Shown: positions 32,601 through 51,501 of the stretch, one piece after another | Layout: each line of letters begins with the position of its first letter | How positions within the stretch are numbered: position 1 is the stretch's first letter | DNA from: Limisphaerales bacterium | Lineage (GTDB): Bacteria; Verrucomicrobiota; Verrucomicrobiia; Limisphaerales; SXTU01 | Direction of reading: 5' to 3' | Assembly: GCA_009773355.1 (NCBI GenBank) | Contig: WRPG01000001.1 | Location: 402,526-458,076, forward strand | DNA length: 55,551 nt | Program-made: the position numbers and the translations under genes | Notes under the pieces: model-generated | Databases searched by the model: none | What the model was told of the DNA's origin: nothing | What the model saw: the letters and a program-made list of their open reading frames with translations, nothing else

Positions 32601-35600
32601 GATGAACAGCTCGGTGAACTGCTTCACCGCCGTGAGATAATGACCGTAGGCATCGCCGTGGCCCTGCGGATACATCTTCGCGGCGGCGGCGGCGTCAATC
32701 GCGGCGCTGCCCGCCAGCGGCTTGATGTTGTAGTTCAGCGCGTAGATCACCTCGCCGGCGTCAATGCCGCGCGTGTAATTCCAGAACATGCGGTTGTAGA
32801 CCGGCCGCGCCTGCACGCCGGGCTGGAGGAAGTCATCGCGTCCGCGCAGCAGCGCCAGCTCCTCCTCCAGCAAGGTGGCCACCTGGCCCTTGAAGGCGAA
32901 GAGCGCCGTGGCCACGTCGTTCTCCTTGGTGCCGACGCCGATGGTGGGATTGGAGGAATCCGCCCAGGCCTCGTTGCCCAGCATCATGTAGAGGTCGTTC
33001 AGGTAGCTGGCCGCCAGCAGCAGCGCGTCGTTGGCCGGCCCGTAGTTGATGCCGGAATCAATGCTGATGTTCCGCCCGCGCCGCAGCACGGTCTCGTAGA
33101 TTTCGATCAGCCCGTAGCTGTTGATGCTCTCCAGGTTCAGCGCCACGTCGCCCTCCCAGCGCTTGCCGGCCTGCGTCAGGATGCTCACGTCCGTGTTCAC
33201 GCTGTTGTTGAACAGGTCGGTGACGCGCTGGTTGAACGGGTTGATGCCCGCCAGCACGCGCTTGATCCAGCCCTCGGCGAGCTGCGGCTCCGTCCAGCGC
33301 GAGAAGCCTTTGGCGAAGGACGCGTGCGTGGTGTTGGTCGCCCGGTAGCGGGCGATCAGGTAGTTGTCCGACAGCGCCCGCACGTCCGCGCCCGTGCCGA
33401 GGATCGCGCGGACCTTGTCGCGGAACTTGCTCGCATCCAACGCGAGCCATTGCGTGCCGGGGAGGGAGGTCTGGTCCACGGACTCGTAGGCTTCGAGGCG
33501 GAGATTGAAGCTCAACTGCGAGCCGGGCAGCGCGCCGGAGAAAAGCTCGACCGCGATGCGGTGCGTAGCCACGCCGCCGCTGCGCGTGCCGCCGGAGAAG
33601 CGGTCGGGGTTGAGCTGATACACCTTGGCAAGCGGCGTGAAGCCGCCCGGCGCGATGGCCAGGTCCGTGTCGCCGACGCCGGTGTTGGCCACCGCCACCA
33701 ACTGGCCGTCGAGATACACCTTCGCGCCGAGCGTGGCGTCCAAGTCGAGGCTGAGGAAGAACTGCGAGTAGTCGCTGCCCTCGCTCACGGTGAACTCGCG
33801 GAACACGATGCTCTGCGGCTGGCCCGCCACGGAGCGCTCGTAGAGTTGCAGCACCGCGAGCGAGGCCGGGACATTCTCCTGGTCCGCGTCGAGCGCCACC
33901 ACGAGGTTCGTGGCCGGCTGGGATTGGTAGGTCGTTCCCGTCACGCTCGTGACGGTGGCGGTGAACTCGCTGCCCGCCGGTGAACGCACGATCAGCGGTG
34001 CGCCCACGGTCATCGTGTGCCGCTGGCCCGGCGTCAGGACGAAACTCAGCTTGTCGTCATTGGTCGCCACCGTGACGAACGGAACCAAGGCCACGGGCGT
34101 CACCGCCGTGGTCACCTCGGCCACCACCCGCGCGGGGTCGGTGAAGTGCACGGTCGCGGGCTGGTCCGTCGCCAGTGGGAAGCGCAGGTGGCTCCACGTT
34201 CCATCCCCGAGCAGCAGCCGGCGGGTGTTCTGATACACCGTGGGCGGCACGCCCTGCACCGGCGCGGCGATCAGCCACTCAAAGTCAAAGTCATCGGTCT
34301 TGCCGCCGAGGTCCACCACCTGCTGGAGCGTGAGCATCTCGCTCAACGGATTCGACGGCTTCACGATCTTGAGCTGGCCCGGATAGAGCGTGTCCACGAC
34401 CTGGATGATCTGCACGCTCACCGGCTCGGCGGTCGGCGTGAAGGCGAACCCGTCGCCCATGACCATCGTCACGTAGCCGACGCCCGGCCCGGTTGCGGTG
34501 AGCGCATACGAGTCCACGGCCACGTCCTGGTCCTTGGCCTCCGCCAGCACGCCGGGGCCGACGGTCTCGGAGCCGCCCACCTTGAACGTGCCGGGGCGGC
34601 CCGGGTCTTCGACGAACTTCTCCATCGTCGCGACGAGTCCGCTGTTGATGGCGCTGTCCCAATACGACTTCAGCGGATCGCTGCCGATGCACAGGCCGCG
34701 CAACGCCTCCGCGTCCTGCGGGCCGAGGACGTTCAGCAGCAGGTAATTGTCGCCCACGACCTCCTGCTTGAACTGCCCGCGCAGCACGAGCGCGCCGTTC
34801 ACGCCCCGGTTCGGGTCGTAGAAGAACCGCTCGACGAGATGCGGCGGCAGGTTCGGGAAGAAGGTCAGCCCCTGGTAGGCGCTGGTGCGCAGCGAGTCCG
34901 GCAGCCGGTTGAGCGCGCCCGCCGTGTTCTTGGCCGGCAGTTTGAACTGCTTCTCGCGGGTCGGATCGTGCAGCACCGCCGCGCGGACGGTCAGCCCGCC
35001 CGTCACCTGCGGCTGCTGGTAAAGCAGGTTGATGCTGGTCTGGCCGCGCACCGAGGGCAGGCCGCGCTTGGGCAGCGTCAACGACTCCGCCATCATCAGC
35101 ACCGGGGTGCTCTCCGGCCAGACCGGGCGATAGGCGATGCCCAGCGAGTTGCCGTCGCCGGTGTTGTCGCCGTTCAAGTCACCGTAGATGGCATCACCCA
35201 CAAAGGTTCCATCGGGATTCCGCGAGCGCAGGTAGGGCGTGATGATGCCCACGGCGGGTTGGGAGGCGAACGGCAGCGAGGGGAAGTAAAAGCCCTCGAG
35301 GGTCTTGTAGTAGAACTGCATCACCATCTTGCCGTTGGCGCCCGGCTGGTGCGGGCCGCGATAGAACCACACGTCGCCCTTGCGGTCCTGATAGGTGAAG
35401 CTCGCGAAGCGGTCGCGCGCGGCGGCGTCCGCGATGGCTTCCGGCAACGGCTCGTAGGCCAGCCGCCACGCGGTGAAGGCGCCGCCCGCCAGACCGCTCT
35501 CAGGCACGACGAGCACCGCGCCGCTTTGCGTGTCCGCCGGCGCGTTCCCGGTGAACTGAATCTCCACGAAGGTGTCGCCGGACACCGTGCCGGTGGCCGC

Positions 35601-38450: not shown

Positions 38451-38727
38451 AACGGTTTGAGAGCGGTGGAAAGGGTCGGCGAACTCCGGTGGCAGAAATT
38501 TGACGCAAGGGCGCAAAGACGCAGGGACGCAAAGAACTGGGAGCTTCTTGGACTGCGGTGGCAGAGCGCAGCGGCGACACCGCTTTGGTTTCCCGCGGAG
38601 CGGAAGCCTTCCGCCGCGCGACGACTGCTCCGCAGAATGGAAAAGCGGCGTGGCGCTTCGCTTCCCGCCGCAGTCCAAACTGCGTCTCTGCGCCTTTGCG
38701 TCTTTGCGTTGAATGTGGCCTCGAGGT
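38451..38727. other. Longest gap in the large operon, filled by element F
   Basis: This 277-nt spacer separates the SurA-like gene from the giant gene. About half of it is palindromic element F. To the left of that (38500-38547) and right (38679-38712) are short repeats with GCAAAGACGCA / TGCGTCTTTGCG character, which may form an outer stem. No gene is seen. A promoter for the giant gene could lie here; I cannot point to one. Confidence 0.5.
38548..38678. repeat. Palindromic element F, full 131-bp copy
   Basis: TTGGACTGCGGTGGCAGAGC at the left and its inverse (..CCCGCCGCAGTCCAA) at the right form imperfect terminal arms of about 38 bp around an inner CGGAAGCCTTCCG palindrome. A 58-bp half copy at 44540-44597 is identical at 57 positions in opposite orientation. 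A fragment is at 14506-14533. Confidence 0.85.
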
Positions 38728-39585
38728 TCATGGATTTGTCCGCGCCTGCGCGGTCAGCCAGTCATCGAAACTCAGCCGCGAAATCTCCACGGCCTGCACC
38801 GTGAGCGCTTCGCCGGTGCGGCTGGCGGCCACGTAAAGGGTGAAGCTCTCGTCCGAGCCGAAGACCGCGCTCACGTCGCCGGGCTTCTGCAACTGCGCGG
38901 CGAGCACCTTCTGCATGTCGGCGTGCAGGTCGGAGAAATACGCCTTGGGCATTGCCGCTCCGAGCGACGGGCGCGCGGAGGCAAGGTCCGTCTTGGGCTT
39001 CGCGCCGAGCTGCCACGTCACCTCGCGCACATCGTTGCGGCTCTTGAGCAAGGCGGCGCGCTCGTCCGCCTTCGCCGCGAGCAACTGCGCCCGCAGTTTC
39101 TCCGCCTCAGCGCGCTTGCCGGCCTGCTGCGCCGCGTCCGCCTCGAAGCGGGCGCGCAGCACGCGGTCCACCACCAGCGGCTTGGCCACGCTGCGGGCGA
39201 AGCGCTCGGGGTTGTTCGCCAGCGACAGCTTGATCTGCGCGAGCATGTCGCCCGCCATCGTGGAACGCTCGATGCGCGCGACTTCCTCCGCCACGAGCTT
39301 CGGGGTGATTTCGAGGCGATAGACATTCTTGAGCACGCGCTCCTTGAGCAGTTCCTGCTGCACGCGCCGCTCGATGACCGAGCGCGACACGGCCTGCTCG
39401 AACGGAGCCTTGGCCCCGACCTGCTTCGCGTAATAAACCCGCTCGACCGCGAGCCGGTCATCCACCAACTCGCCCACGGAGGCGGCGAAGGCGGGCAGGG
39501 CGAGGGCGAGCAACGCGATGAGGAGCGCGGCCCTCCGGGCCGCAGCGGCAACTTGCGCAGCGGGGCGGACAGATGCCCGAGGCAT
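38728..39585 (-). CDS. SurA/parvulin-like periplasmic protein
   Basis: A 285-residue exported protein (from the ATG at 39585; signal core RRAALLIALLALALPAFAA). Residues about 37-130 look like the helical SurA N-terminal chaperone region (VGELVDDRLAVERVYYAKQV; VIERRVQQELLKERVLKNVY). A second helical stretch (AQQAGKRAEAEKLRAQLLAA) follows. The last 80 residues recall a degenerate parvulin (LQKPGDVSAVFGSDESFTLY, then VAASRTG), although the canonical active-site histidines are not seen. It could chaperone the large beta-rich proteins of this operon. The frame is open up to an ATG at 39954 that overlaps the Kelch stop (ATGA) and would add 123 residues encoded by elements G, D and B. The 39585 start lies inside element B, so even the signal peptide is partly repeat-derived. 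Confidence 0.6.
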   Translation of the reverse strand: MPRASVRPAAQVAAAARRAALLIALLALALPAFAASVGELVDDRLAVERVYYAKQVGAKAPFEQAVSRSVIERRVQQELLKERVLKNVYRLEITPKLVAEEVARIERSTMAGDMLAQIKLSLANNPERFARSVAKPLVVDRVLRARFEADAAQQAGKRAEAEKLRAQLLAAKADERAALLKSRNDVREVTWQLGAKPKTDLASARPSLGAAMPKAYFSDLHADMQKVLAAQLQKPGDVSAVFGSDESFTLYVAASRTGEALTVQAVEISRLSFDDWLTAQARTNP

Positions 39586-39628
39586 TTCGGTGTCGGGGTG
39601 GCCGCTGCGGGCGGGACGCCCGCGCTCC
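39522..39628. repeat. Palindromic element B, copy 1 (107 bp)
   Basis: GGAGCGCGGCCCTCCGGGCC at one end and GGCGGGACGCCCGCGCTCC at the other, with an inner GCCGCAGCGGCAAC / GCCGCTGCGG pair. It matches 44155-44261 over the same length. Read leftward it encodes ERGRPARSGHPDTE and then QVAAAARRAAL, the start of the signal-peptide core of the SurA-like protein. Confidence 0.85.
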
Positions 39629-39684
39629 GGGACGGCCACGAACTCAGACGGCTGGCCGACATCGCCGATGGCAGGCATCTGCGC

Positions 39685-39787
39685 GAAGCGTCTGGAGTGC
39701 GGACGCTTCAGCGCCGCTGTCCGAACCGTGCTGACCACAGGGACGCCTCCAAAAGCGGTGCTGAAGCCACCGCAGTCCAGACGCTCC
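39685..39787. repeat. Palindromic element D, copy 1 (103 bp)
   Basis: Terminal inverted repeats of 28 bp (GAAGCGTCTGGAGTGCGGAC.. and ..CCGCAGTCCAGACGCTCC) pair with about 5 mismatches around an internal 47-nt segment. Copy 2 (44414-44516) has the same length. Read leftward it encodes ERLDCGGFSTAFGG and TAALKRPHSRRF. Confidence 0.85.
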
Positions 39788-39828
39788 GCGACGCCGTGGC
39801 CCAGTGCGCGTCCAGCAGCGCCTTCGCG

Positions 39829-39924
39829 GGTAGCCGCCGACGTGAGGAGGCTCTGGCTGTCGTTCCGCGTTCCGCATTCCGCGTTCCGCATTGGCAACAG
39901 AGCCTTCTTACGTCGGCTGCTACC
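39829..39924. repeat. Palindromic element G with 7-bp tandem repeats in the loop
   Basis: Arms of 27 bp (39829-39855, GGTAGCCGCCGACGTGAGGA..; 39898-39924) pair at 24 positions. The 42-nt loop holds degenerate 7-bp tandem units (GTTCCGC, GTTCCGC, ATTCCGC, GTTCCGC). Read leftward the loop encodes MRNAECGTRN. Confidence 0.8.
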
Positions 39925-39950
39925 GGGGTTCAATTGTTCGTTCCGGCGCG

Positions 39951-42170
39951 TCATTGCTTCACGTATTGGTAGGCCTCGATGGGCGGCTGGTAGCTGATGA
40001 CCGACTGGTCGGTGTCGGGGAGCCAGCCACTGAAAATGAGAAGCTCCTTGCCAGTCCAGGTGAAGGGCTGGTGAGGGGTTTGCTTGGGCACGTTGGGCAT
40101 ACGCGTCCACTTGCTGGTCGCCGGATTGAAGCGGGCACACTCGCCGCGGACGCTGCTGCCATCCCAGCCGCCGACGATGAGCCACTCCGTGCCCGTCCAA
40201 GCGGCCTGATGATACACCTTGCCGGTGCCGTCGTTCGGGAGTCCGGGCTTGGCGGTCTGAATGGCGCTCCAGGTGTTGGACACCGGGCTGTAGCGGGCAT
40301 ACCGCATGTCCGAGCTGCCATGACCGAAGCCGTAGAGATACTCCGTGCCCGTCCACGCGGAGCTCGATCCAGCAAAGCTGAACGGGATGTCCGGCATCGG
40401 GGTCCAGTTGTCCAGCACCGGGTTGTAGCGCGCCGCCTTGTTGATGCCGGTGGTGGCGGTGACCGTATCGTGCCCGCCAGCGATGATCATCTCCGTCCCC
40501 GTCCACGCGAAGCAGTGGTCGCCGAAGCCGCCGCGCTGCGGGTTGGAAGCCATCGAGCGCCACGTGTCCGTCGCCGGGTTGTAGCGCGCGCCGGTGTTCA
40601 CCCAGGTCGAGCTGCCAAAACCGCCAAAGACGATGATCTCCGTGCCGGTCCAACACGCGCTAAACCGCGCTCGGGCACCCGCGCTGTTGGCCGAATTGAT
40701 GCTGGTCCACTGGTCGGTGGTCGGGTTGTAAAAAAAGCCGTTCCCTGTCCCATTCGGGCCGCGATCTCCGCCGTTGTAGCCACCGTAGAGCCACATCCGG
40801 TCACCCAGCCAGATGCACTGGAATTCATGCCGGGCGGATGGCGCGTTCTGCGTCGAAATGGGCGTCCAAGTGTTCAGCACGGGATCAAACATCGCTCCGG
40901 TTCCGAGGAAGGTGCTCTCATTCGCGTTCAAGCCACCCCAAACAATCCATTTCGTGCCGGTCCAACAGGTCTCCTGCGCCCGCATGTCGGCACTGCCCTG
41001 ATTGTAATTCCGGTTCACCGGTGCGTTGGGCGTCACTTCGCTCGCCTTCACCGTCCAGCGGTCGCCGCCGATGCGACGGCTGCCCACGTTCACGAAGCCT
41101 AGGCTCGTGAGCGACGCGTTGGTTGGACTCAGCGAGAACACCCCGCCGCCCGCGCCCACGCCGCCGGCCTGGCTCAGGATCAGATTGAGCGCGTCGCTGG
41201 TCAGCTTGTTGGTCTCCAGCGAGCCGTTGGCCAGCGCGCTGCCGGGCACCGTGCCGGGCACGAGCTTGGCCACCGTGATCGCGCCGTCCGCGATCTGCGC
41301 GCCGGAGAGCGTGCCCACGAGGCTCGCCACCGTCGTGGTCACGTTCGAGAGGCCCGTGCCGCTGCCTTGGAAGGCCGTCGCGCGCACCGTGCCGCCCACG
41401 TCCACCGTGGCGGTCGGGTTGTTCGTCAGGTTCACGCCCAGCCCCGCCGGGCCGACGCGGATGAGCAGGTTGCCGTCCGGTCCCGTCAACCCCGCCGCCG
41501 CGCGGCTGGCGTGGACAAACGGGCTGGCCATGAACTGCACGCGCGGCGAAAGCTCCGCACCGCCGCCCAGACGCACTCCCAGGTAGCGCTCCGAGACATC
41601 CGGCCCGAGGAAGACGCCGGTGAGGTTGTTCGTGAACTTGCCGGCATCCGTGGCCTGACCCGTAGGGCTGCCGCTGCCGAGCGTGACGCTGTAGTGGCCG
41701 CGATCCACCGTGACGATCTGCGTCTCTGCCCAGACGACATCCGCCGCCGTGGTGCCGCCGGCGCTGCGGTAGATGCGGAAGGTGACGGTGGCGTTCACCG
41801 GAGCCGCCGCACCGAGCGGGATGCCGGCGGTGTCCGTGAGGAAGCCCTGGTAGCTGATGCGGCCGGGCGGAAGGGAGTCTGCGGCGAGGGCGGGGAGGGT
41901 GAAGGCGAGCAGGAGCGCGGCGAGGAACCCGAGCGGCGACGGGCTGATCCGGGTGGAACGGGCCACCGGCCCGTTGCGGCGAGCGACCCGCTCGCCGCTC
42001 GTGCTGCGCCGGGAAAACTCCAAACAATTCGAGAGCGGGCAGTGCCGAAGCTCGGCGGCAGGTTGCCGCCGAGCACGGCCAGGTTGGCCGTTCCACCCGG
42101 CCCCATCAGGCTGCCATTGCAGGACGCCGCCGACCCGGTATGGGGGGAGGTTTGAAGAGGTTCGTTTCAT
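39951..42170 (-). CDS. Seven-bladed Kelch-like protein with tail-fibre-like N-terminal domain
   Basis: A 739-residue exported protein. Residues about 100-190 form a domain found in all the Kelch proteins here (GRISYQGFLTDTAGIPLG, FRIYRSAGGTTAADVVWAET, VDRGHYSVTLGSG). Residues about 190-320 resemble phage/S74-type tail-fibre stalks (TVDVGGTVRATAFQGSGTGL; GAQIADGAITVAKLVPG). Residues about 355-720 hold seven Kelch-type units, each with WTG-x-[EK]-x-x-[IL]-x-x-GG and YNP-x-TD-x-W. It ends PIEAYQYVKQ. The signal core (GFLAALLLAFTLPALAA) begins at residue 81 because element H encodes residues about 25-73. No in-frame ATG lies between; a GTG at 41966 inside the element would give a normal signal peptide and 671 residues. 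It starts 20 nt after the preceding gene. It is probably a surface-exposed binding protein. Confidence 0.85.
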   Translation of the reverse strand: MKRTSSNLPPYRVGGVLQWQPDGAGWNGQPGRARRQPAAELRHCPLSNCLEFSRRSTSGERVARRNGPVARSTRISPSPLGFLAALLLAFTLPALAADSLPPGRISYQGFLTDTAGIPLGAAAPVNATVTFRIYRSAGGTTAADVVWAETQIVTVDRGHYSVTLGSGSPTGQATDAGKFTNNLTGVFLGPDVSERYLGVRLGGGAELSPRVQFMASPFVHASRAAAGLTGPDGNLLIRVGPAGLGVNLTNNPTATVDVGGTVRATAFQGSGTGLSNVTTTVASLVGTLSGAQIADGAITVAKLVPGTVPGSALANGSLETNKLTSDALNLILSQAGGVGAGGGVFSLSPTNASLTSLGFVNVGSRRIGGDRWTVKASEVTPNAPVNRNYNQGSADMRAQETCWTGTKWIVWGGLNANESTFLGTGAMFDPVLNTWTPISTQNAPSARHEFQCIWLGDRMWLYGGYNGGDRGPNGTGNGFFYNPTTDQWTSINSANSAGARARFSACWTGTEIIVFGGFGSSTWVNTGARYNPATDTWRSMASNPQRGGFGDHCFAWTGTEMIIAGGHDTVTATTGINKAARYNPVLDNWTPMPDIPFSFAGSSSAWTGTEYLYGFGHGSSDMRYARYSPVSNTWSAIQTAKPGLPNDGTGKVYHQAAWTGTEWLIVGGWDGSSVRGECARFNPATSKWTRMPNVPKQTPHQPFTWTGKELLIFSGWLPDTDQSVISYQPPIEAYQYVKQ
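41951..42098. repeat. Palindromic element H (148 bp)
   Basis: GGGTGGAACGGGCCACCGGC (41951-) and the inverse of GGGTGGAACGGCCAACCTGG (ending 42098) form the ends. Each arm carries its own inner hairpin (GGCGAGCGACCCGCTCGCC; GGCGGCAGGTTGCCGCC). It lies wholly inside the signal-peptide-proximal part of a Kelch gene, in frame. I see only this copy. Confidence 0.8.
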
Positions 42171-42190
42171 GGTCGCGCTTGGATAACAGT

Positions 42191-44650
42191 TCACGGCTTG
42201 GCGTAGAGGTAGGCGGGGCGGGGCGGGCGGTAGGAATAGACGGCGTTGTTGCCGCCGTCGTTCCAGAAGCCCATCCACATGAACTCGCTGCCGGTCCAGG
42301 TGTAGAAGATGTCGTGCAGGCGGCCGCCGCCGCCGGGGTTGGTGCCAACGAAGTTGTTGCCCGTCGCCAAGGGCGTCCAGGTGTCCGTCACGGGGTTGTA
42401 GCGCACACCATCACTCAGGCCGGTGGCCCCGTTGCCGCCGCCCCAGATGATCATCTCGTGGCCCGTCCACGCCACGAGCGGGCGGTAGCGCGCCGAGAGG
42501 GTGGCGGTGCCGGGGCTGATGAGTTTCCAAGTGTTGCTGACCGGGTTGTAGCGCGCGCCGCCATGCACGTTGCCGCCGTCATAGCCGCCGTAGATGATCA
42601 TCTCCGTGCCGGTCCAGACGGCACCTTGGAAATTCGCCTTGCCGTTGGGGTGGAACGGTATCGGTGTCCAGGTGTCGGTCGCCGGGTTGTAGCGGGCACC
42701 ATCGTCGAAATAGGTGCTACCCGTGTTGACACCGCCCTGAATGATCATCTCCGTTCCAGTCCAGACAGCGCAGGGATCATGACGGCCCGCAAGTGGACTG
42801 GCAGCTAGCAAACGCCAAGTGTCCGTGCTGGGATTGTAAGCCGCTCCATCATTCCACGAGATCCCTCCTGACGTCCCGCCCCAAACGATGAACTCGGTGC
42901 CGGTCCAGATGCTGGCGAAGCGGGTGCGATTGTCCGTGTATCCCGGCAGGGTGATCGCGGCCATGTTCGACCATTTGTCCGTGGCCGGGTCATAAAGCTT
43001 GCCGTCGCCCAGCGTGACGCTGCTAAACCCGCCCCAAACAATGACCTTGCTGCCTGTCCAAGCGGTTTGCATCTCACGGCGTGCACTTGGGGCATTGACG
43101 CTCGACATCACCGACCAAGTCCCCAGCGCCGGGTCGAAGATGCGGCCATCGTTGTAGTTGGCCGTGGCCCCCGCCGTGGTGCCACCCCAGATGATCCACT
43201 TGCTGCCCGTCCACGCCGACTGGCGGGCCTGTGATTCGCCGCTCCCAGCAATGGCGAAGCGCACGCCCGGCGCATTGGGCGCGCCGACGAACGCCTTAAC
43301 CTGGTAGGTGTCGCCGTCCAGCGTGGCCGGGCCGAGGTTCACGAAGCCCAGTGCGGTGAGTGTCGGGTTGTTCGCGTTGGTCGAGACCACGATGGCGCCG
43401 GAGCCGACGCCGCCGACCGTGGCCGCCAATGTGTTGACCGCGTTGGCGCTGATGGCCGAAGAGCCGACGGAGCCGTCCGCCAGCTCCGCCGTGGTGAGCG
43501 GCGCGGCGAGCTTCGCGCCCGTGAGCGCGCCGTCCGTGATCTGCGCCGCCGTGATGGTGCCGGTGAGCCGCACTGCCGAGACGGAGACGCCCGTGAGCTG
43601 CGCGCCGCTGCCGACGAAGTTGGTGGCCTTGAGCGTGCCGGAGATTTCCAGCGGGAAGGCCGGCGTGTTGGTGAGGTTCACGCCGAGGTTCGTGCCGGAG
43701 GCATTGACGAGGGACGTGCCGCCCGCGCCCACGAGCATCGTGGCCGCACCGCTGAACTGCGCGAAGGGCGACGCGAAGAACTGGATGCGCGGGCGAAGCT
43801 CCGCGCCCGTGCCCACCGTCACGCCGAGGAAGCGGTCCGAGGCGTCCGCGCCGGTGAAGACGGTGGCGAGGTGGTTGGTGAACGGCTCCGCGCCCACCGA
43901 CGCGCCGCCGCCCAGCAGCACGGTGTATTGCCCCTGCTCCACGACGACGGTCTGCGACTCGGCCCAGACGATGTCGCCGGACGTGGTGCCGGTGGCGTTG
44001 CGGTAGATGCGGAAGGTGAGGTTGGTCTTGAGCGGACTGGCGAGGCCGAGCGGCTGGCCGGCGGCGTCCGAGAGGAAGCCCTGGAAGGCCATCTTGCCGG
44101 GAGGCGTGGGCGTGGCGGCGAAGGCGGGGAGGGTGAGGGTGAGGAACACGGCAAGGAGCGCGGCCCTCCGGGCCGCAGCCGCAACTTGCGCAGAGAGGCA
44201 GGCGGATGTCCGAAGCCATTCTGTGCCGGGGTGGCCGCTGCGGGCGGGACGCCCGCGCTCCTGGTAGGGCGCGTCTGTCCCCAGCGCGCCGCTGAACCAT
44301 TCGGACACCCAACCGGCGCGCTGGGACAGACGCGCCCTACCAGCTTCGGGGTGAGGGAGAGCGGCAACGAACTCAGACGGCTGGCCGGCATCGCCAAGGG
44401 CAGGAGTCTGCGCGGAGCGTCTGGAGTGCGGACGCTTCAGCGCCGCTGTGGGAACCGTGCTGGCCACAGGAACGCCTCCAAAAGCGGTGCTAAAGCCACC
44501 GCAGTCCAGACGCTTCGCGACTCCGTTGCCTGGCGCGCGTTCCGCTCTGCGGGAAACCAAAGCGGTGTCGCCGCTGCGCTCTGCCACCGCAGTCCAAGAC
44601 GGTTTGGTGAATTCGTTGCTCATGTTCGGACGGGGTTGCGGGAAGTTCAT
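42191..44650 (-). CDS. Seven-bladed Kelch-like protein with repeat-encoded N-terminal extension
   Basis: An 819-residue frame. The signal core (AALLAVFLTLTLPAFAA) lies at residues 163-179. After it come the shared domain (KMAFQGFLSDAAGQPLG; FRIYRNATGTTSGDIVWAES), a tail-fibre-like stalk (LEISGTLKATNFVGSGAQLT) and seven Kelch units (WTGSKVIVWGG, WTGTEFIVWGG, WTGTEMIIYGG and others). The end is PRPAYLYAKP. Residues about 18-160 are encoded by four stacked palindromic elements (F half, D, E, B). No in-frame ATG occurs between codon 10 and the mature domain, so translation must start at the ATG at 44650 or 44623 and cross the repeats, or use a rare start such as the GTG inside element E (residue 115). 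It starts 6 nt after the preceding gene. Confidence 0.85.
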   Translation of the reverse strand: MNFPQPRPNMSNEFTKPSWTAVAERSGDTALVSRRAERAPGNGVAKRLDCGGFSTAFGGVPVASTVPTAALKRPHSRRSAQTPALGDAGQPSEFVAALPHPEAGRARLSQRAGWVSEWFSGALGTDAPYQERGRPARSGHPGTEWLRTSACLSAQVAAAARRAALLAVFLTLTLPAFAATPTPPGKMAFQGFLSDAAGQPLGLASPLKTNLTFRIYRNATGTTSGDIVWAESQTVVVEQGQYTVLLGGGASVGAEPFTNHLATVFTGADASDRFLGVTVGTGAELRPRIQFFASPFAQFSGAATMLVGAGGTSLVNASGTNLGVNLTNTPAFPLEISGTLKATNFVGSGAQLTGVSVSAVRLTGTITAAQITDGALTGAKLAAPLTTAELADGSVGSSAISANAVNTLAATVGGVGSGAIVVSTNANNPTLTALGFVNLGPATLDGDTYQVKAFVGAPNAPGVRFAIAGSGESQARQSAWTGSKWIIWGGTTAGATANYNDGRIFDPALGTWSVMSSVNAPSARREMQTAWTGSKVIVWGGFSSVTLGDGKLYDPATDKWSNMAAITLPGYTDNRTRFASIWTGTEFIVWGGTSGGISWNDGAAYNPSTDTWRLLAASPLAGRHDPCAVWTGTEMIIQGGVNTGSTYFDDGARYNPATDTWTPIPFHPNGKANFQGAVWTGTEMIIYGGYDGGNVHGGARYNPVSNTWKLISPGTATLSARYRPLVAWTGHEMIIWGGGNGATGLSDGVRYNPVTDTWTPLATGNNFVGTNPGGGGRLHDIFYTWTGSEFMWMGFWNDGGNNAVYSYRPPRPAYLYAKP
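44155..44261. repeat. Palindromic element B, copy 2 (107 bp)
   Basis: Same ends and length as copy 1 at 39522-39628, with about 20 scattered changes in the middle. Read leftward it encodes ERGRPARSGHPGTEWL and QVAAAARRAALL, running straight into the signal core of the Kelch gene. Confidence 0.85.
44261..44343. repeat. Palindromic element E (83 bp)
   Basis: CTGGTAGGGCGCGTCTGTCC.. (44261-44290) pairs with 44315-44343 over 29 bp with only a bulged C. The loop is 24 nt. It sits between elements B and D, whereas the other B-D pair (39522-39787) has no E. That makes it a clean insertion. Confidence 0.92.
44414..44516. repeat. Palindromic element D, copy 2 (103 bp)
   Basis: Same length and ends as copy 1 (39685-39787). 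Terminal inverted repeats GGAGCGTCTGGAGTGCGGAC and GTCCAGACGCTTC. Encodes KRLDCGGFSTAFGG and TAALKRPHSRRS in the Kelch frame. Confidence 0.85.
44540..44597. repeat. Half copy of palindromic element F
   Basis: Identical at 57 of 58 positions to the inverse of 38548-38605. It lacks the other half of the element. Encodes part of AERSGDTALVSRRAER in the Kelch frame. Confidence 0.85.
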
Positions 44651-44656
44651 GGCGCG

Positions 44657-47600
44657 TCAGGGCTGGTAGGAGAGCACAGTGCGGTCGAGGGCATCCTCCC
44701 ACGAACCGAAGGTGAGGAGCTGGGTGCCGGTCCAGGTGAAGGGCATGTTGCGCTGCTGGATAGGCGCAACGGGCAATGTGCCCACGATGCCGGTGACGGG
44801 ATCGTAGGTGATGCCCCCTTTGCCGCTGCGATTGACCATCCCGACCGCGTTGATGCCGCCGGCCCAGATGACCTTGGAGCCGGTCCACACGGCGGTGGCT
44901 TCCTGCGACCAAGTATATTGGCCGGTGTTGAAGGTGGTCCATGTGTCGGTCGCGGGGTTGTAGCGTCCGCCGGTGTTGAGGTCGGAACTGAGGTTGGTGT
45001 GGCCGAGGTAGCCGCCCCAGACAATCATCTCCGTGCCCGTCCAGACAGCGAGGGCCAAGCCGCGGCCAACCGGCGCGTTGACTGAACTCATCGGCGTCCA
45101 AGTGTTACTGGTGGGGTTGTAGCGCGCGCCGTCTGCGCGCGGTGTGCCAAAAATGCTGGCATTGGTGGTGCCACCCCAGACCAGCATCTCCGTGCCGGTC
45201 CAGACGGCGAGGTGGTCAGCCCGGTTGGTGAAGCCCACGGGCACGGCGGCCATCGCGGTCCAAGTGTCGGTCGCCGGGTTGTAGCGCGCCCCGTTGTTGG
45301 TCACGGTCATGCCGGTGGCGATGGCCCCGCCCCAAACGAGCATCTCCGTGCCGGTCCAGACCGCCGTGTGCCGGCAGCGGGCCGACAGCGCGCCGGTGGC
45401 GGTGATGTTGCTCCAAGTGTTGTTCGCCGGGAAGTAGCGCTTCCCGTCGCCGATGAAGTTGTTGGTGTAGCCGCCCCAGTAGATGGCCTGGTCGCCCGCC
45501 CACACTGCGGAGAACTGAGTGCGCGGGCTGGGCGCGTTGGTCGGCGACATCGGCTGCCAACTGTTGTTCGCCGGGTCGAAGGCGGCACCAGTGTTCAAAG
45601 CGATAAAAGGGCTGATGTAAGGAGCGGCAATCCCCCCCCAGACCAGCCACTTTGAGCCCGTCCAGACCGACCGGTGCGGCGTGCCACTGTAGTCGAAAAC
45701 ACTCGGCAGCGGTGCGTTGGGCGTGTCCTTGGTGGCGCGGATGGTCCAGTTGTCGGTGGGCGGGGTGGTCTTGGCGTAGAAATAACTTTCCGTCTCGGGC
45801 TTGAAGGAGAGCACCGTGCGGTCGTTGCCGTCGCGGAAGGTGGCGAAGGTCAGCAGCTCGGTGCCGGTCCAGGTGAACGGCATCCACGTCTGGGTGATGG
45901 GGGCGGCCGGGATGTAGTCGAATTTGTTGTTGGCGGGGTCGAAGCTGAAGCCACTGGTGTTACCGCCATCGTTGGGATAGCCACTGCTGTTCCGGCCCTG
46001 GAGAAAATAGGCTTTGGAACCGCTCCAAAAGGCCGCGCCTTCAATCCCTTGATTGAAGTTTGCAGTGTTGAACGGAATCCAGGTGTCCGAGGCCACGTCA
46101 TAACGGCCGCCATCGGTGTTCCACCCGCCACCAAACCCACCCCACACGATCAACTCCGTGCCAGTCCATACTGCGGCTGCCCCCTCGCGTGCAGAAGGCG
46201 CGCTGAAACTGCTCATGGAACGCCAAGTGTTGCTGACTGGGTTGTAAAGCGCCCCGTCCCGCTGGTAGACCCCTGCCGCCACGCCGCCCCAGACGAGAAC
46301 CTCGGTGCCAGTCCAGAAGGCGTTGTAGTCACGCCGGCCCGCGATGGGCGCGGCGGGCAGCGCGCGCCAGCCATTGGTCGCGAGGCTGTAGAGGCCGCCG
46401 TTGTTGGGGTTGTTGTTGATGTTGTTCACCAGTTCGCCGCCCCAGACGAACAGCTCGGAGCCGGTCCACACGCTGCGGTGCCGGTTGCGCGCCTGCGGCT
46501 CGTTCACGGTGCCCATGGGCGACCAAGTGTTCGCAACGGGGTCGTAAATCCTGCCATCAGCGTAGGGATTACCATCGTGGCCGCCCCAAAAAAGGCCCTT
46601 CGTGCCGGTCCAGATGAAGTTGATCTCGTTGCGCGGGGTCGGCGCGCCGACGGTGGAAATGGGTGTCCATGAGTTGAGCGCCGGGTCGAAGATACCTCCA
46701 TCCGTGGCGTAGCCACCAACGATGGAATCTCCCGAATACAGGATCCATTTGCTGCCGGTCCAAATCGTGGCGGCGGCGCGATGGTCGCTGCCGCCGATGC
46801 TGTTGATGCGCGACACGGGCGCGTTGGGCGTGTCCTTCGTGGCACGGATGGTCCACTTGGGGCCGTCGAAGTTCGCGCGGCCGATGTTGACGTAGCCCAT
46901 GTTGTGCAGCACGGGGTCGAGCTTCTTGGTGGAGACAATGACGCCGCCGTTGGGCACGCCGCCGGCCTGCGCGGCGAGGGCGAGGGCGGCGTCCGGCGCG
47001 AGCTTGGCGGCGGTGACGGCCTGGTTCGCCACGAGCGACGCGGCGATGGAGTTCGTGGCGAACTTCGCGCCCGTCACCGTGGCGTCCGCGAGGCGCGAGG
47101 CGTCGAAGGTGCCGGTGACATTCGCCGCCTGCACGGGCACGCCGGTGAGGCCCGAGCCATCGCCGATTAGCGCGGTGGCCTTCGCGGTGCCGCCCACGTC
47201 GAGCGTCGCGCCGGGCGCACCGGGCGTGTTGACGCCGACCGCGCCGGGCGCGGTGTTGAAGACGGGCTGGCCGCTGTTGTTGAGCAGGTTCGCCGTGGTG
47301 CGCGCGAGGTGCGCGAACGGCGAGGACAGGAACTGCATGCGCGGCGCAATCTCCGCGCCCTGCCCCACGACCGTGATGCCGAGGAAGCGGTCGGAGGCGT
47401 CCGAACCGAGGAAGAGGCTGGCAAGGTTGTTGGTGAAGAACTCACCCGCGACGCCGGTGGCGTTGCCCGCGCCGAGCAGCGCGTTGAAGAAGCCGCGCGT
47501 GACCTTCACGGTCTGCTTTTCCGCCCAGACCAAGTCGCCTGGCGTGGTCCCGGCCGCGCTGCGCCAGAGGCGGAATTGCACCTGCACGTTCGTCGTTGCC

Positions 47601-47884
47601 GTCTGCCCGAGCGGCACGCCGGCGGCATCGGTGAGGTGGCCCTGGAAGGTGAGGCGGCCCGGCGGGAACTGGTCGGCAGCGGAGGCGGTGAGCGTCGCTG
47701 CCGCCAGCAACGCGAGCAGCAGACCATGCGTCCGCGTGGTGGAGCGCAGGTGTCCAACCTGCGCGATGAGGCCCAACAGCAACGCGCAGGTGGGACACCT
47801 GCGCTCCGGCGAATTGCAGCCGCCCCGACGGGCGGTGGGAAGGAGATACGTTTCCATAGGTCGGTGAAAGTTCGCGCGGTTCAT
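44657..47884 (-). CDS. Double Kelch-like protein (2 x 7 blades)
   Basis: A 1,075-residue exported protein. The signal core (HGLLLALLAAATLTASAA) is at residues 53-70 and is preceded by palindrome A (residues about 26-48). The shared domain (GRLTFQGHLTDAAGVPLG) and stalk (ATLDVGGTAKATALIGDGSG) follow. The first set of seven Kelch units ends in ETESYFYAK, the usual C-terminus of its neighbours. A second WTIRATKDTPNAP block then opens another seven units that stop at DRTVLSYQP, without the final strand. This looks like a fusion of two Kelch genes in which the joint keeps an old C-terminus. The start may be the ATG at 47884 or at 47857. It begins 3 nt after the preceding gene. Confidence 0.85.
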   Translation of the reverse strand: MNRANFHRPMETYLLPTARRGGCNSPERRCPTCALLLGLIAQVGHLRSTTRTHGLLLALLAAATLTASAADQFPPGRLTFQGHLTDAAGVPLGQTATTNVQVQFRLWRSAAGTTPGDLVWAEKQTVKVTRGFFNALLGAGNATGVAGEFFTNNLASLFLGSDASDRFLGITVVGQGAEIAPRMQFLSSPFAHLARTTANLLNNSGQPVFNTAPGAVGVNTPGAPGATLDVGGTAKATALIGDGSGLTGVPVQAANVTGTFDASRLADATVTGAKFATNSIAASLVANQAVTAAKLAPDAALALAAQAGGVPNGGVIVSTKKLDPVLHNMGYVNIGRANFDGPKWTIRATKDTPNAPVSRINSIGGSDHRAAATIWTGSKWILYSGDSIVGGYATDGGIFDPALNSWTPISTVGAPTPRNEINFIWTGTKGLFWGGHDGNPYADGRIYDPVANTWSPMGTVNEPQARNRHRSVWTGSELFVWGGELVNNINNNPNNGGLYSLATNGWRALPAAPIAGRRDYNAFWTGTEVLVWGGVAAGVYQRDGALYNPVSNTWRSMSSFSAPSAREGAAAVWTGTELIVWGGFGGGWNTDGGRYDVASDTWIPFNTANFNQGIEGAAFWSGSKAYFLQGRNSSGYPNDGGNTSGFSFDPANNKFDYIPAAPITQTWMPFTWTGTELLTFATFRDGNDRTVLSFKPETESYFYAKTTPPTDNWTIRATKDTPNAPLPSVFDYSGTPHRSVWTGSKWLVWGGIAAPYISPFIALNTGAAFDPANNSWQPMSPTNAPSPRTQFSAVWAGDQAIYWGGYTNNFIGDGKRYFPANNTWSNITATGALSARCRHTAVWTGTEMLVWGGAIATGMTVTNNGARYNPATDTWTAMAAVPVGFTNRADHLAVWTGTEMLVWGGTTNASIFGTPRADGARYNPTSNTWTPMSSVNAPVGRGLALAVWTGTEMIVWGGYLGHTNLSSDLNTGGRYNPATDTWTTFNTGQYTWSQEATAVWTGSKVIWAGGINAVGMVNRSGKGGITYDPVTGIVGTLPVAPIQQRNMPFTWTGTQLLTFGSWEDALDRTVLSYQP
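47741..47807. repeat. Palindromic element A, second full copy (67 bp)
   Basis: Same length and arm sequence as 2456-2522, with one arm mismatch (T/G). The 17-nt loop keeps only its ends (ATG..GCCC..CAA). Here it is inside a coding region, encoding about ERRCPTCALLLGLIAQVGHLR, directly before the signal-peptide core. Confidence 0.9.
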
Positions 47885-47887
47885 GCG

Positions 47888-49831
47888 TCAGGGCACGCTG
47901 AGGTGGTCAATGGTGCTGATGCGGTTGAGGATGAAGGTGCCGCGCGTGGAGACGGTGCGCGTCTCATTGGTCGTCACCGCGCCGAGCACGTAGGCGCGGC
48001 CGATGAACGAGATGGTCTCCTCGTAGCTGCCCGTCACGCGCGTGCTGCCGGAGGTGAGGCTGTTGTATTCCACGGACGGCTCCGTGAAGGTCAGGATCAT
48101 CTCCCGTTTCACGCCGAGCGACTCGACCCCGACGGGCTGCACGCCGTTGAACAGCGCGTTGAGGTTGTCGTGGTCCGGGTGGTAGGTGTGGAGGAAGGGG
48201 TTCGAGGCGTGGTCGTTGTAGTTCAGGACGATGGTGTTGGTCAGGCTGCGCCCGGTCTGGAACGCGCCCACGCCGGTCCAGGTGGTGTTGTTCGGCGACC
48301 AGGGCAGGTGCGCCGCGCTGATGCGGCGGGCGGAGGCGAGGCGGGTGGGGTCGAGCTGCTGCTCGGTCAGCGTGAGGGCGGCGTTGGTGCCGCGGTCCCA
48401 GCCGTTATAGACGCGCTGGAGGAGCCGGACGACGTCGTTGGTGTCGCTGTGCAGGATCAGCCGGAGGTTGAACGGCGAGGGCACCGCGCCCCACGAGGTG
48501 TCAATGCCGGTGATGACGAAGGGCGCGCCGTTGGTGGTGAGCGGGCCGACGACCGGCTGCCCGGCGGCGTCCTTCTGGTAGGCCTTGAGATAATGGCGGA
48601 CCTGGTTGACGGAGGCGTTGCCGATCCACAGGCCGCGATTGGAGGTCTTGACGGCGGTGACGGGAAGTTCGAGCTGCGTGTAGCCCAGCGAGTCGTTCAG
48701 GCGGAAGATGCCGGCATAGAAATCGCCGGGCTGGTTCGGCGCGTTGGTCATCGCGGCGCGGTTGAGGCCGATGACCAGCTCCGCGTCGGAACCGGGCGTG
48801 CCGGCGGGCGCGAGGGTGATGACCTGCGGCGTGGAGAAGTCGGTGAAGGTGAAGCTCTGGTTGGAGGCGTTGATCGCGCCGCGCAGGAGCAACGGGACCG
48901 TGGCCACGATGGGCGTGCCCTGCGGCGGCGGCGTGGCGGAGGCGACGAGCGAATTCGTCACCCGGATGGTGCCGGCGGTGAGGTTGCGCACGCGCAGGCT
49001 GTATTGGCCCAGCTCGACGCCGAAGTGGATGCCCTCGGAGTCCTGTGGGACGATTTGCAGCGGGCCAAAATAATTGTTGTGCAGGTTGTTCGCCCGGATC
49101 CAGAAGGCCTGCCCGCGCTTGAGCGGCGTGGAGAACAGCGCGAACAACTGCGCGGTGGCGGGCGGCGCGCCGGCCAGCTCGTTGCCGGGGTAGTGGAAGA
49201 TTTCCGCCTGGCTCTGGAAGGCCGGCACCGGGCTGAGAAACGTGTCCACCACCGGCGGGTTGACGGGCGGCGTGGGGAACCCGAGGAAGTTCACGCCCTG
49301 CGCGGTCCACGAGTAGTTCGGCGGGACGGGGCGGCCCACGATGTTCCAGGTGTAGCTGCCCGCGCCGCCGTTGCGGACGAGGTAGGCGTTGTTGGCCCGG
49401 AGCGTGGTGAGCGTGCCGGTGAGGGCGGGCGTGCGGTTCCAGGAAGACCAGTCATTGTTCACCACCGTGGGCACCTGCGGGTTGTTGATGAAGCGGCCCG
49501 GGGCGACGATGGGCTGCCACTGCCAGATCTCCGTGATGGGGTTGCCCCCGTCGCCGGTGATGGAGCCGTCGAGGTTCGTGTGCGTGGCGTCCACATGCAG
49601 ATACACGGCGTTCCAGCCGGGCTTGAGCGTGATGGACTGGGTGGTCCACTGGGCGTGCACTGACATCGCGAGCGCGAGAGTGAGCAGGAACGCCAGCGTC
49701 CAGGGCGTGCTCCGTGTGGCGTGTTCCGTGTCCAGCGCGCGGGCGGCCGGAGGCACGGCACGCAACACGCAACACGCAGCTTGTAGCACGGCCTGGCCGG
49801 CGACTCCGATTGAAGTGGTCTTGGTTCTCAT
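47888..49831 (-). CDS. Exported protein of unknown family
   Basis: A 647-residue exported protein (signal core WTLAFLLTLALAMSVHAQ, residues about 43-61). I recognise no family. The mature part is beta-rich with aromatic motifs: SITLKPGWNAVYLHVDATHT, then EIWQWQPIVAPGRFINNPQV and FHYPGNELAG. A later section (FYAGIFRLNDSLGYTQLELP) and the end (TYHPDHDNLNALFNGVQPVG, FIGRAYVLGAVTTNETRTVS) are also strand-rich. The phrase 'GWNAVYLHV' followed by an 'ANNAYLV' stretch is a pattern I associate with verrucomicrobial exported proteins beside Kelch genes, but this is recollection. It overlaps the preceding Kelch stop by 4 nt (ATGA). The start-proximal 40 codons (AACCVLRAVPPAARALDTEH) come from a palindromic tandem region at about 49705-49795. 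Confidence 0.75.
   Translation of the reverse strand: MRTKTTSIGVAGQAVLQAACCVLRAVPPAARALDTEHATRSTPWTLAFLLTLALAMSVHAQWTTQSITLKPGWNAVYLHVDATHTNLDGSITGDGGNPITEIWQWQPIVAPGRFINNPQVPTVVNNDWSSWNRTPALTGTLTTLRANNAYLVRNGGAGSYTWNIVGRPVPPNYSWTAQGVNFLGFPTPPVNPPVVDTFLSPVPAFQSQAEIFHYPGNELAGAPPATAQLFALFSTPLKRGQAFWIRANNLHNNYFGPLQIVPQDSEGIHFGVELGQYSLRVRNLTAGTIRVTNSLVASATPPPQGTPIVATVPLLLRGAINASNQSFTFTDFSTPQVITLAPAGTPGSDAELVIGLNRAAMTNAPNQPGDFYAGIFRLNDSLGYTQLELPVTAVKTSNRGLWIGNASVNQVRHYLKAYQKDAAGQPVVGPLTTNGAPFVITGIDTSWGAVPSPFNLRLILHSDTNDVVRLLQRVYNGWDRGTNAALTLTEQQLDPTRLASARRISAAHLPWSPNNTTWTGVGAFQTGRSLTNTIVLNYNDHASNPFLHTYHPDHDNLNALFNGVQPVGVESLGVKREMILTFTEPSVEYNSLTSGSTRVTGSYEETISFIGRAYVLGAVTTNETRTVSTRGTFILNRISTIDHLSVP
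49705..49795. repeat. Tandem/palindromic repeat region K
   Basis: Short CGTGTT/CGTGCC-type units (CGTGCTCCGTGTGGCGTGTT..) at the left are echoed in inverse by GCACGCAACACGCAACACGC at the right. The loop-like centre is GC-rich. The structure is like the tandem loop of element G, but arms are imperfect. It lies in frame before the signal core of the 647-residue protein. Confidence 0.5.
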
Positions 49832-51501
49832 GGCTTGCGGAAAAAGTAGAAGGCGGGCTGCGGGGTGAGGCGCTGCAGCGTGGCGATGGGCGTGCCGCCG
49901 GACTGCCCGCCGAAGATGACGAGCTGCGAGCCGGACCAGACGGCCGTCGAGAGCGTGCGGGCCACCGCGCCGGTCGCGGTGTCGAGGGTGCGCCACTTGT
50001 TCTTCACCGGGTCGTAAGCTGCGCCGGACGAAAGCGAGCCGGTGTTGTCCTCGCCGCCGTAGATGAGCATCTCCGTGCCAGTCCAGACGGCGACGTGGTT
50101 CGCCCGCGCGACCGGTGCGCCCGTGCCGGGCAGCGCGGTCCAGGTGTCCGTCGCCGGATTGTAAGCCGCGCCGTTGCCGAGGAACGCGCCGCTCTGCTGG
50201 CCGCCCCAGACAATCATGTTCGTGCCTGTCCAGACGGCGGTGTGCCGGCTGCGAGCCGAAGGCGCGCCGGTGGGGCTGACCGCCGTCCACGACTGCGGCA
50301 CGCCAGCGGTGCATTCCAGGCGCGCGCCGGTCGCCAGTTCACCGCTGTCGCCCTGGCCGCCCCAGATGATGGCGTTCGTGCCCGTCCAGATGGCGGTGGT
50401 GAACCGCCGGGCCGCCGGAGCGCCGGTCGTGGGCAGCGCGGTCCACGCGTTGCCCGTGGGGTCGTAGGCTCCGCCGTCGGCGAGCAGACCGGTGTTGTTC
50501 AGCCCGCCGAAGACGACCATGCGCGTGCCGGTCCAAAGGGCCACGTGCGAGCTGCGCATGGCCGGCATCCCGCTGGTGGTGACGGCGGACCATTCGCCGT
50601 TGCCGAGGTGATACTTGCTGTTCGTCGTGGCCTGCCCCGCCGCGCCGGAGCCGCCGAAGACGACCATCTCCGTGCCGGTCCAGACGGCCGTGTGGCCCGC
50701 GCGCGCGGAGGGTGCCTGGAAGGAACTGAACGTCGTCCACGAGTCCGACGCCGTGGCATACGCGCCGCCGCTGGAGCTGTAGGAAGCCCCGCCGAGATCA
50801 CCGCCCCACACGAGGAGCTGCTGGCCGGTCCACACAGCCGAGTGCCCGGAGCGACCCGAGGGCACGCCCGTGGCAGTGCCGTTGACCCACGGCGGCGCGG
50901 GCACCGTCTGGAAAAGCTGCAACCCCTGTCCGAGGAACGCCGGATCCGACGCGTCCGCCGAGACGACCGGGACACCCACCGGGATGTTCGTGGCGAAGTG
51001 GTTGGAGAACGTCGCCAGTTGCGTGGTCAGCGCGGTGATTTGCGCCGCGAGCGCGTCGGTGTTTGCCAGCACCGCGTAAGGCACCGGCGAGACCGGCGTG
51101 CGGGGCGCCAGCACGGTGTGGGCGGAGGCGGAGCCATTCGTGCGCGCGCCAATTTCCAGCCAGCGGGCCGCGCCGGTGAAGACACCCGCGCCGAAGTCCA
51201 GCGTGACGTTGAAGAGGCCATTGGTGACGCCCACGGGATTCAGCGTGAGCGTGCTGCCGACCGCGTTGCCGGCGGTGAGCGCGTCGCGCACGCCGAACTG
51301 AAAGTCATACAGGCCATTGGCCGGCACGCCGCCGTCGGTGAGGCGGCCTTGGAAGGTGAAGCTGGTGCCTTGGGCATGGGCGGCCGGCGGCTGCCCCAGC
51401 AGCAGCGCCCCGGCGAGGAGTGACAGCAGTGGCGGGCACCACCGTGCGACGCTGGTGGCGAGGGGCCGCAGCCAATTGGCGATTGCCGTGGTCTGTTTCA
51501 T
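49828..51501 (-). CDS. Seven-bladed Kelch-like protein, first gene of the large operon
   Basis: A 557-residue exported protein. The signal peptide has a normal length (about 44 residues; PPLLSLLAGALLLGQPPAAH then AQG). The shared N-terminal domain is present (FTFQGRLTDGGVPANGLYDF; TNGLFNVTLDFGAGVFTGAA) but the tail-fibre-like stalk is replaced by a short helix (DALAAQITALTTQLATFSNH). Seven Kelch units follow (WTGQQLLVWGG, WTGTEMVVFGG, WTGTRMVVFGG, WTGTNAIIWGG, WTGTNMIVWGG, WTGTEMLIYGG, WSGSQLVIFGG). It ends in PAFYFFRKP. I start at the ATG at 51501; the frame is open to 52050 but without signal. It is the most upstream gene, so the operon promoter should be in 51502-51695. Confidence 0.88.
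   Translation of the reverse strand: MKQTTAIANWLRPLATSVARWCPPLLSLLAGALLLGQPPAAHAQGTSFTFQGRLTDGGVPANGLYDFQFGVRDALTAGNAVGSTLTLNPVGVTNGLFNVTLDFGAGVFTGAARWLEIGARTNGSASAHTVLAPRTPVSPVPYAVLANTDALAAQITALTTQLATFSNHFATNIPVGVPVVSADASDPAFLGQGLQLFQTVPAPPWVNGTATGVPSGRSGHSAVWTGQQLLVWGGDLGGASYSSSGGAYATASDSWTTFSSFQAPSARAGHTAVWTGTEMVVFGGSGAAGQATTNSKYHLGNGEWSAVTTSGMPAMRSSHVALWTGTRMVVFGGLNNTGLLADGGAYDPTGNAWTALPTTGAPAARRFTTAIWTGTNAIIWGGQGDSGELATGARLECTAGVPQSWTAVSPTGAPSARSRHTAVWTGTNMIVWGGQQSGAFLGNGAAYNPATDTWTALPGTGAPVARANHVAVWTGTEMLIYGGEDNTGSLSSGAAYDPVKNKWRTLDTATGAVARTLSTAVWSGSQLVIFGGQSGGTPIATLQRLTPQPAFYFFRKP

Follow-up and report, generated by a model that had tools for sequence, protein, structure and literature searches.

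Mobile REPINs appear to have inserted serially into the signal-peptide n-region of K2, a gene encoding a secreted Kelch-repeat protein in a lake verrucomicrobial genus; the repeats would be translated from the upstream start and removed with the leader, leaving the mature Kelch protein unchanged. We place the probability of this reading at about 0.8. K2 lies in a window of 55,551 nucleotides from a draft genome of 162 contigs (G000), apparently a metagenome bin, as its named congeners are MAGs; G001, G003, G004, G007 and G010 denote congeneric genomes. Features of the window are listed in Table 1. An Rfam search of the window returned two tRNAs and nothing else.

Organization of the K2 leader

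K2 matches the Kelch_KLHDC2_KLHL20_DRC7 (1.9e-29) and Kelch_1 (6.7e-18) domains in a domain search, and has orthologues in G001, G003, G004 and G007 (77-85%). Its mature protein starts near codon 180 (TPTPPGKMAF) and, judging from dN/dS values of 0.19-0.24, is under purifying selection. The initial annotation had assigned codons of about 18-160 to half of an element F followed by elements D, E and B, without any in-frame ATG from codon 10 to beyond the signal sequence. Both observations held: the elements map to codons 17-166, and codons 1 and 10 are the only in-frame ATG codons ahead of the mature part. In-frame GTG or TTG codons occur in the leader at positions 22, 31, 62, 115 and 168. The hydrophobic core lies directly after element B (AARRAALLAVFLTLTLPAFAA, followed by TP). 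By inspection of K2 and its orthologues, the leader has a charged n-region, a hydrophobic core and an A-x-A motif (RRAALLAVFLTLTLPAFAA, then TP), as in Sec signals; signal peptides were judged by eye and the K2 cleavage site is predicted. The n-region of about 160 residues is far above the usual length, the median on contig C27 being 7 codons.

Table 1. Features of the secreted-protein operon and of the K2 leader, in coordinates of the window.
Feature	Coordinates	Strand	Description
K0	47888..50149	-	~40-codon in-frame insert in signal n-region, in G000 only
K1, upstream Kelch gene	44657..47884	-	In-frame GGAG (CGCAGGTGTCC) REPIN after METYLLPTARR
K2, Kelch-repeat secreted protein gene, 819 aa	42191..44650	-	Start ATG 44650-44648; second ATG 44623
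K2 element F (half)	44540..44601	-	Codons 17-37; 98% complementary to 38546-38605; many genome copies
K2 element D	44362..44542	-	Codons 37-97; REPIN-like imperfect palindrome, arms 44411-44458 / 44472-44519
K2 element E	44261..44343	-	Codons 103-130; GTAG-tagged REPIN, 21-bp perfect outer arms; genome copies
K2 element B	44155..44264	-	Codons 129-166; GGAG-tagged REPIN, multicopy with well-defined ends
K2 signal-peptide hydrophobic core and AFA cleavage motif	44114..44160	-	LLAVFLTLTLPAFAA; from translation, aligned with orthologue signal peptides
K3, downstream Kelch gene	39954..42200	-	GTGA-coupled start near 42200; in-frame palindromic insert ahead of signal core
PPIase/SurA-like gene (presumed)	38731..39954	-	ATGA-coupled start 39954; GTAG REPIN (X2), D and B in frame before a different signal core

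Codons 11-155 contain no stop in the sense frame, and the remaining frames have one to three stops apart from one stop-free antisense frame; because that frame is likewise open, the openness of the leader is by itself weak evidence for translation. Codon statistics for codons 1-160, a check proposed in the initial annotation, revealed no codon bias (GC1/2/3 of 0.68/0.67/0.69), with a mean codon log-odds of -0.22 compared to about +0.5 in the mature part and mostly negative values up to the signal peptide. Codon usage thus gives no sign that the K2 repeats are translated, and it is uninformative here since the elements have equal G+C at all three codon positions. Within the inserts, dN/dS involves too few sites to decide.

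Conservation of the reading frame across species

K0, K1, K2, K3 and a gene that we take to be PPIase/SurA-like, with no Pfam match, form a secreted-protein operon that is present in whole or in part in congeneric genomes, and its gene order is the same across independent assemblies. We compared these five consecutive genes in up to five genomes. Their starts are fixed, as each gene overlaps or nearly touches its upstream neighbor, through an ATGA or GTGA overlap or a start located 3-6 nt past the stop. In the insert-bearing operon genes (13 of 13), the distance from this start to the mature part is divisible by three and free of in-frame stops, the other frames mostly containing stops. No out-of-frame insert was seen among genes with anchored starts.

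The inserts themselves differ between genomes. K2 carries F-D-E-B in G000; G001 and G003 have a GTAGCGCAAGC REPIN instead, and G007 has two others. At one and the same place, K1 harbors a GGAG REPIN in G000, element E in G001, another GTAG REPIN in G007 and none in G004 (MATKSFFAACLLMFALTATAADQ). K3 of G007 bears element F in the same frame as K2, and the PPIase-like gene of G001 has a different GTAG REPIN after the same start. For K0, the start-to-mature distance in G001, G004, G007 and G010 is 21-27 codons. The PPIase-like gene of G007, located at a contig edge, contains a TAG in its signal core after a B-like repeat, which may reflect either a pseudogene or a sequence error. The pre-signal insert of K3 from G004 (locus L115) is a CCCTCACCCCGGCCCTC...GAGAGGGCCGGGGTGAGGG palindrome (LPHPGPLPLGEGA...SLSQRERAGVREK) with no GTAG or GGAG tag, so untagged repeats use the same pre-signal niche.

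Four insertions outside the operon, in genes for a membrane protein and a sulfatase, are all in frame as well, with empty sites in congeners. The start-to-mature distance of the multi-pass membrane-protein gene (L050, no Pfam match) is 102 nt in six congeners, 228 nt in G000 (B REPIN), 192 nt in G007 and 141 nt in G001. That of the sulfatase gene (L057, Pfam Sulfatase 1.9e-63) is 72 nt in six congeners and 156 nt in G000, where an E REPIN gives the N-terminus MNGTVRGSS-E-AVLAMLLFGFVSLLPAAEPRPN. Overall, about 16 independent insertions are multiples of three, which would have a probability of (1/3)^16, about 2e-8, if frame were irrelevant. In this count, the K2 insert common to G001 and G003 was entered once, and L077 was left out; the anchored-start script gave no anchor for L077, and its N-termini were compared by eye.

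Since all of these independent insertions are in frame, translation most likely starts at the old upstream codon and passes through the repeats, which form a very long n-region. This supports the first of two options in the initial annotation, which had also called for alignment with orthologues lacking the elements; the alignment exposed empty sites in congeners, and inserts that are all multiples of three. At the level of sequence, the comparison establishes the identity of the elements, the anchored starts, the frame kept across species and the empty sites; that the long leader is in fact translated and then cleaved is inferred.

Proposed mechanism and alternative explanations

We propose that REP/REPIN miniature palindromes, presumably mobilized by RAYT (Y1 tyrosine) transposases, inserted successively downstream of the old start codon but ahead of the hydrophobic core. 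The original operon-coupled ATG, either codon 1 or codon 10, would still serve as the start of translation, and F, D, E and B would be read through as a passive Arg/Ala-rich n-region. Signal peptidase would then remove the whole leader between AFA and TP. Insertions would survive in the n-region for two reasons: the gene stays functional only if they are in frame and free of stops, and the peptide that they add is discarded. The finished protein is thus probably unaltered by inserts that are cut off with the signal. Several observations stand against this reading: K2 codons 1-160 are without codon bias, the n-region is far beyond the usual length, the G007 PPIase-like gene has a TAG in its signal core, no RAYT was found flanked by E, B or D, and the strong hairpins might hinder translation.

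The repeats could instead be untranslated 5' sequence, with the real start at a GTG or TTG that they contain (element D has GTG 62 and element E has GTG 115) or at a non-standard codon beside the core. The lack of codon bias would agree with such an internal start, as would the opinion of Di Nocera et al. (PMC3733652), who considered many N-terminal REPs to be extragenic and their apparent position in genes to result from wrong start calls, with translation maybe starting downstream. The single well-positioned Shine-Dalgarno candidate, a GGAGG-like site (-9.3 kcal/mol), also lies upstream of GTG codon 62, but it means little since called starts in this genome are poor in Shine-Dalgarno sites (values of -6 or lower in 3%, versus 12% of random sites). 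Initiation at either codon 62 or codon 115 would leave E and/or B translated, and GTG 168 falls within the core. The frame of the anchored ATG, which an internal start would not need, is kept in 13 of 13 operon cases and 4 of 4 outside cases. We regard an internal start as unlikely, and the second option of the initial annotation, a GTG start within a repeat, is disfavored by the old-ATG frame being kept in every anchored insert-bearing gene. In general, Shine-Dalgarno-like sites are scarcer at called starts of G000 than at random positions, and scoring of such sites is not useful in this genome.

Translation of the repeats is compatible with a selected role of the extension, such as slowing of translation by hairpins, an autotransporter-like ESPR, regulation or targeting. 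The hairpins are indeed very stable, long autotransporter signals contain functional domains (PMC2805444), and the K2 inserts of G001 and G003 differ at 3 of 102 nt while the mature genes differ at 248 of 1893 nt. However, the type, number and length of the elements vary freely among orthologues, some of which have none, which argues for tolerance over conserved function; a comparison of D and B between two genes gave dN/dS values of 0.38 and 1.38, from few sites. A selected role seems to us as improbable as an internal start. An assembly of 162 contigs with repeats prone to mis-assembly, and the stop in one orthologue, might also suggest mis-joined repeats or a dead gene. This is very improbable, given the same operon order in independent assemblies, the recurrence of this kind of insert at one position in five genomes, the purifying selection on the mature gene and the lack of out-of-frame inserts among anchored genes. 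Passive in-frame insertion with removal of the leader is the reading that we retain.

Repeat elements and RAYT transposases

E and B are built as REPINs, in which tagged REPs are paired head to head, and both are multicopy. Each combines a REP tag with an imperfect hairpin, GTAG-GGCGCG...CGCGCC in E and GGAG-CGCGGGCG...CGCCCGC in B. F and D both begin with TGGAC and lack the GTAG/GGAG tag. An inverted REP pair with a variable spacer is present in D, E and B, F being represented in K2 by a half only. The predicted RNA fold energies are -72.7 kcal/mol for E, -82.4 for D and -66.8 for B. The elements have the high copy number and dispersal of REP/REPIN sequences: the 441-base repeat block of K2 gives 70 matches in its own genome (6.5e-231 for itself, then 90% over 179 nt and 94% over 87 nt), B about 45 and E about 48, both strands being counted; some 40 other genomic hits to B measure about 107 bp.

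D and B of K2 recur in the PPIase-like gene, 4.7 kb away, with 89% identity over 184 nt and 84% over 160 nt; the D copy at 39633-39816 aligns ungapped at 89% identity. The two genes share the order of D and B and their distance to the core although they encode unrelated mature proteins. K2 contains E (about 96 nt), which is missing at the D-B junction of the PPIase-like gene. This arrangement fits a leader duplication or gene conversion between the two genes, E being a later arrival or having been lost from one of them. The last codons of B specify AARRAALL, corresponding to the charged n-region and the beginning of the K2 hydrophobic core; as the end of B encodes AQVAAAARRAALL in both genes, the repeat supplies positive charges and the first core residues.

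The genome contains three Y1_Tnp matches. L023 is a RAYT of 262 aa with a YVVMPNHVHVL motif and GTAGCTCGACATT/GTAGCTCGACATTCCAATGTCGAG REPINs on both sides. L022 scores 89.1 bits against NCBIfam REP_Tyr_transpos (cut-off 80) and sits among GGAGCGC[A/C]GGTGTCC (GGAGCGC...GTGTCC) repeats, the K1 insert being of the same type. Within this genome, which is 95% complete, the two RAYT genes are flanked by other REPIN families, and none was found next to E, B or D; mobilization of exactly these families by RAYTs is thus presumed. At positions 109-1908 of L022, a single open frame of 599 aa joins the RAYT to a second ORF, presumably proline-racemase-like; a GGAG REPIN lies where the two meet, and another lies at the RAYT 3' end. 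L021 is an IS200-like Y1 transposase flanked by a different palindromic repeat (CCTGGGGCGTTGCCCCAGGCTGGGATGGG).

Comparison with known systems

GTAG-tagged REPs and many intragenic ones are reported from the verrucomicrobium Opitutus terrae in a study that also describes the RAYTs of such repeats (Di Nocera 2013, PMC3733652). The elements described here resemble REP/REPIN systems (Bertels & Rainey 2011, PMC3116915) in their GTAG/GGAG tag next to a hairpin, head-to-head pairing, dozens of copies, REPIN-flanked RAYTs and partly intragenic location. They differ by the stacking of four elements over about 145 codons of one n-region, whereas the larger clusters in PMC3733652 span 43-82 aa, by their likely preference for signal-peptide n-regions, and by comparative evidence for translation of N-terminal copies where that study suspected mis-annotated starts. 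The initial annotation had likened the repeats to Rickettsia palindromic elements, palindromes of up to about 150 bp that insert in frame in unrelated genes whose function is kept (PMC10969869). The analogy is apt, in that in-frame insertion into functional genes occurs here too (in the operon, at outside loci and in gene bodies), but GTAG/GGAG-tagged REPs/REPINs are the nearer kind; the Rickettsia elements belong to another phylum, and RPE-4 and RPE-6 are CGTC-tagged (PMC3733652), a distinction drawn from their descriptions.

Among enterobacterial RU/ERIC sequences fused to ORFs, a mobile repeat lies within the predicted signal peptide of one Yersinia gene (Delihas 2007, PMC2759123); that prediction concerns a single case and involved no comparison of empty sites or reading frames, whereas here the pattern is repeated over genes and species. 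Autotransporters also have N-terminally extended signal peptides (PMC2805444), but the extension here consists of mobile repeats, varies among orthologues and occurs on non-autotransporters. Our literature search, of incomplete coverage, returned no description of repeated in-frame REPIN insertion into signal n-regions. What looks new is good evidence for the translation of N-terminal REPs, and for signal n-regions as a preferred and probably tolerated landing site. The REP literature has left in doubt whether 5' repeats are translated or reflect wrong start calls; the species comparison makes translation very probable in the present case. It also suggests a general reason for the presence of mobile elements inside genes, namely that the protein segment they occupy is removed in any case. 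If this is right, gene callers that choose the start nearest to the core would misplace the starts of many secreted proteins in genomes of this kind, and the length limits of n-regions in Sec export could be tested with natural variants, since n-regions of related genes range from about 7 to 160 residues.

Genome-wide distribution of the inserts

Further copies of B, E, D or F lie in frame before signal cores in L003, L012, L018, L050, L057, L076, L077 and others; by motif, we take L003 and L012 to be cytochrome-type PSCyt1 proteins. Copies are also found in frame within gene bodies, in apparent linkers of L043 and L061, presumably DUF1553/PSD1-type proteins. We surveyed contig C27 (458 kb) using a simple gene finder (375 genes, 88% coding) and hand reading. 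An arm-pairing scan yielded 62 REPIN-like elements of several families (an earlier strict hairpin rule had found 20), of which 25 are intergenic, 13 lie in frame in gene bodies and the rest are near gene starts. The location next to signal peptides, pointed out in the initial annotation, is therefore real for K2 and other genes but not exclusive.

Eight n-region calls were made automatically on C27, three of which were dropped on reading: 49525, with an ATG inside the core; 144100, with a GTG in between and no start upstream; and 391716, with a proper ATG after the element. Five genes have n-region REPINs with no intervening ATG (K1, K2, the PPIase-like gene, C27:167252 and C27:23074). As n-regions make up about 0.9% of coding DNA on this contig (3.7 kb versus 399 kb), their share of genic REPINs, 5/18, corresponds to an approximately 40-fold enrichment (P of about 5e-7); without the three operon genes that prompted the search, 2/15 still exceeds the 0.14 expected, if modestly. 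Enrichment of REPINs in n-regions is likely but not settled. It is conceivable, at a little under even odds, that n-regions are a systematic safe harbor for mobile palindromes in this lineage, and that B, whose RRAALL end supplies charges and core, lets secretion signals be rebuilt from mobile DNA.

At C27:22994-23187 of G000, E and B are again adjacent and in frame ahead of a hydrophobic core, as they are in K2, and REPINs may thus insert next to REPINs. The long gene body of L239 (G000 C27:372228-376094) has two GTAGCACGACATT REPINs in frame, at codons ~738 and ~877. The F copy at 38546-38605 is in frame near the open N-terminus of a gene of about 3000 codons (29691-38753, minus strand); it probably lies 5' of the true start, as the proper start MKHLNRLLSGVTALLAFAAVARGQ comes after the element.
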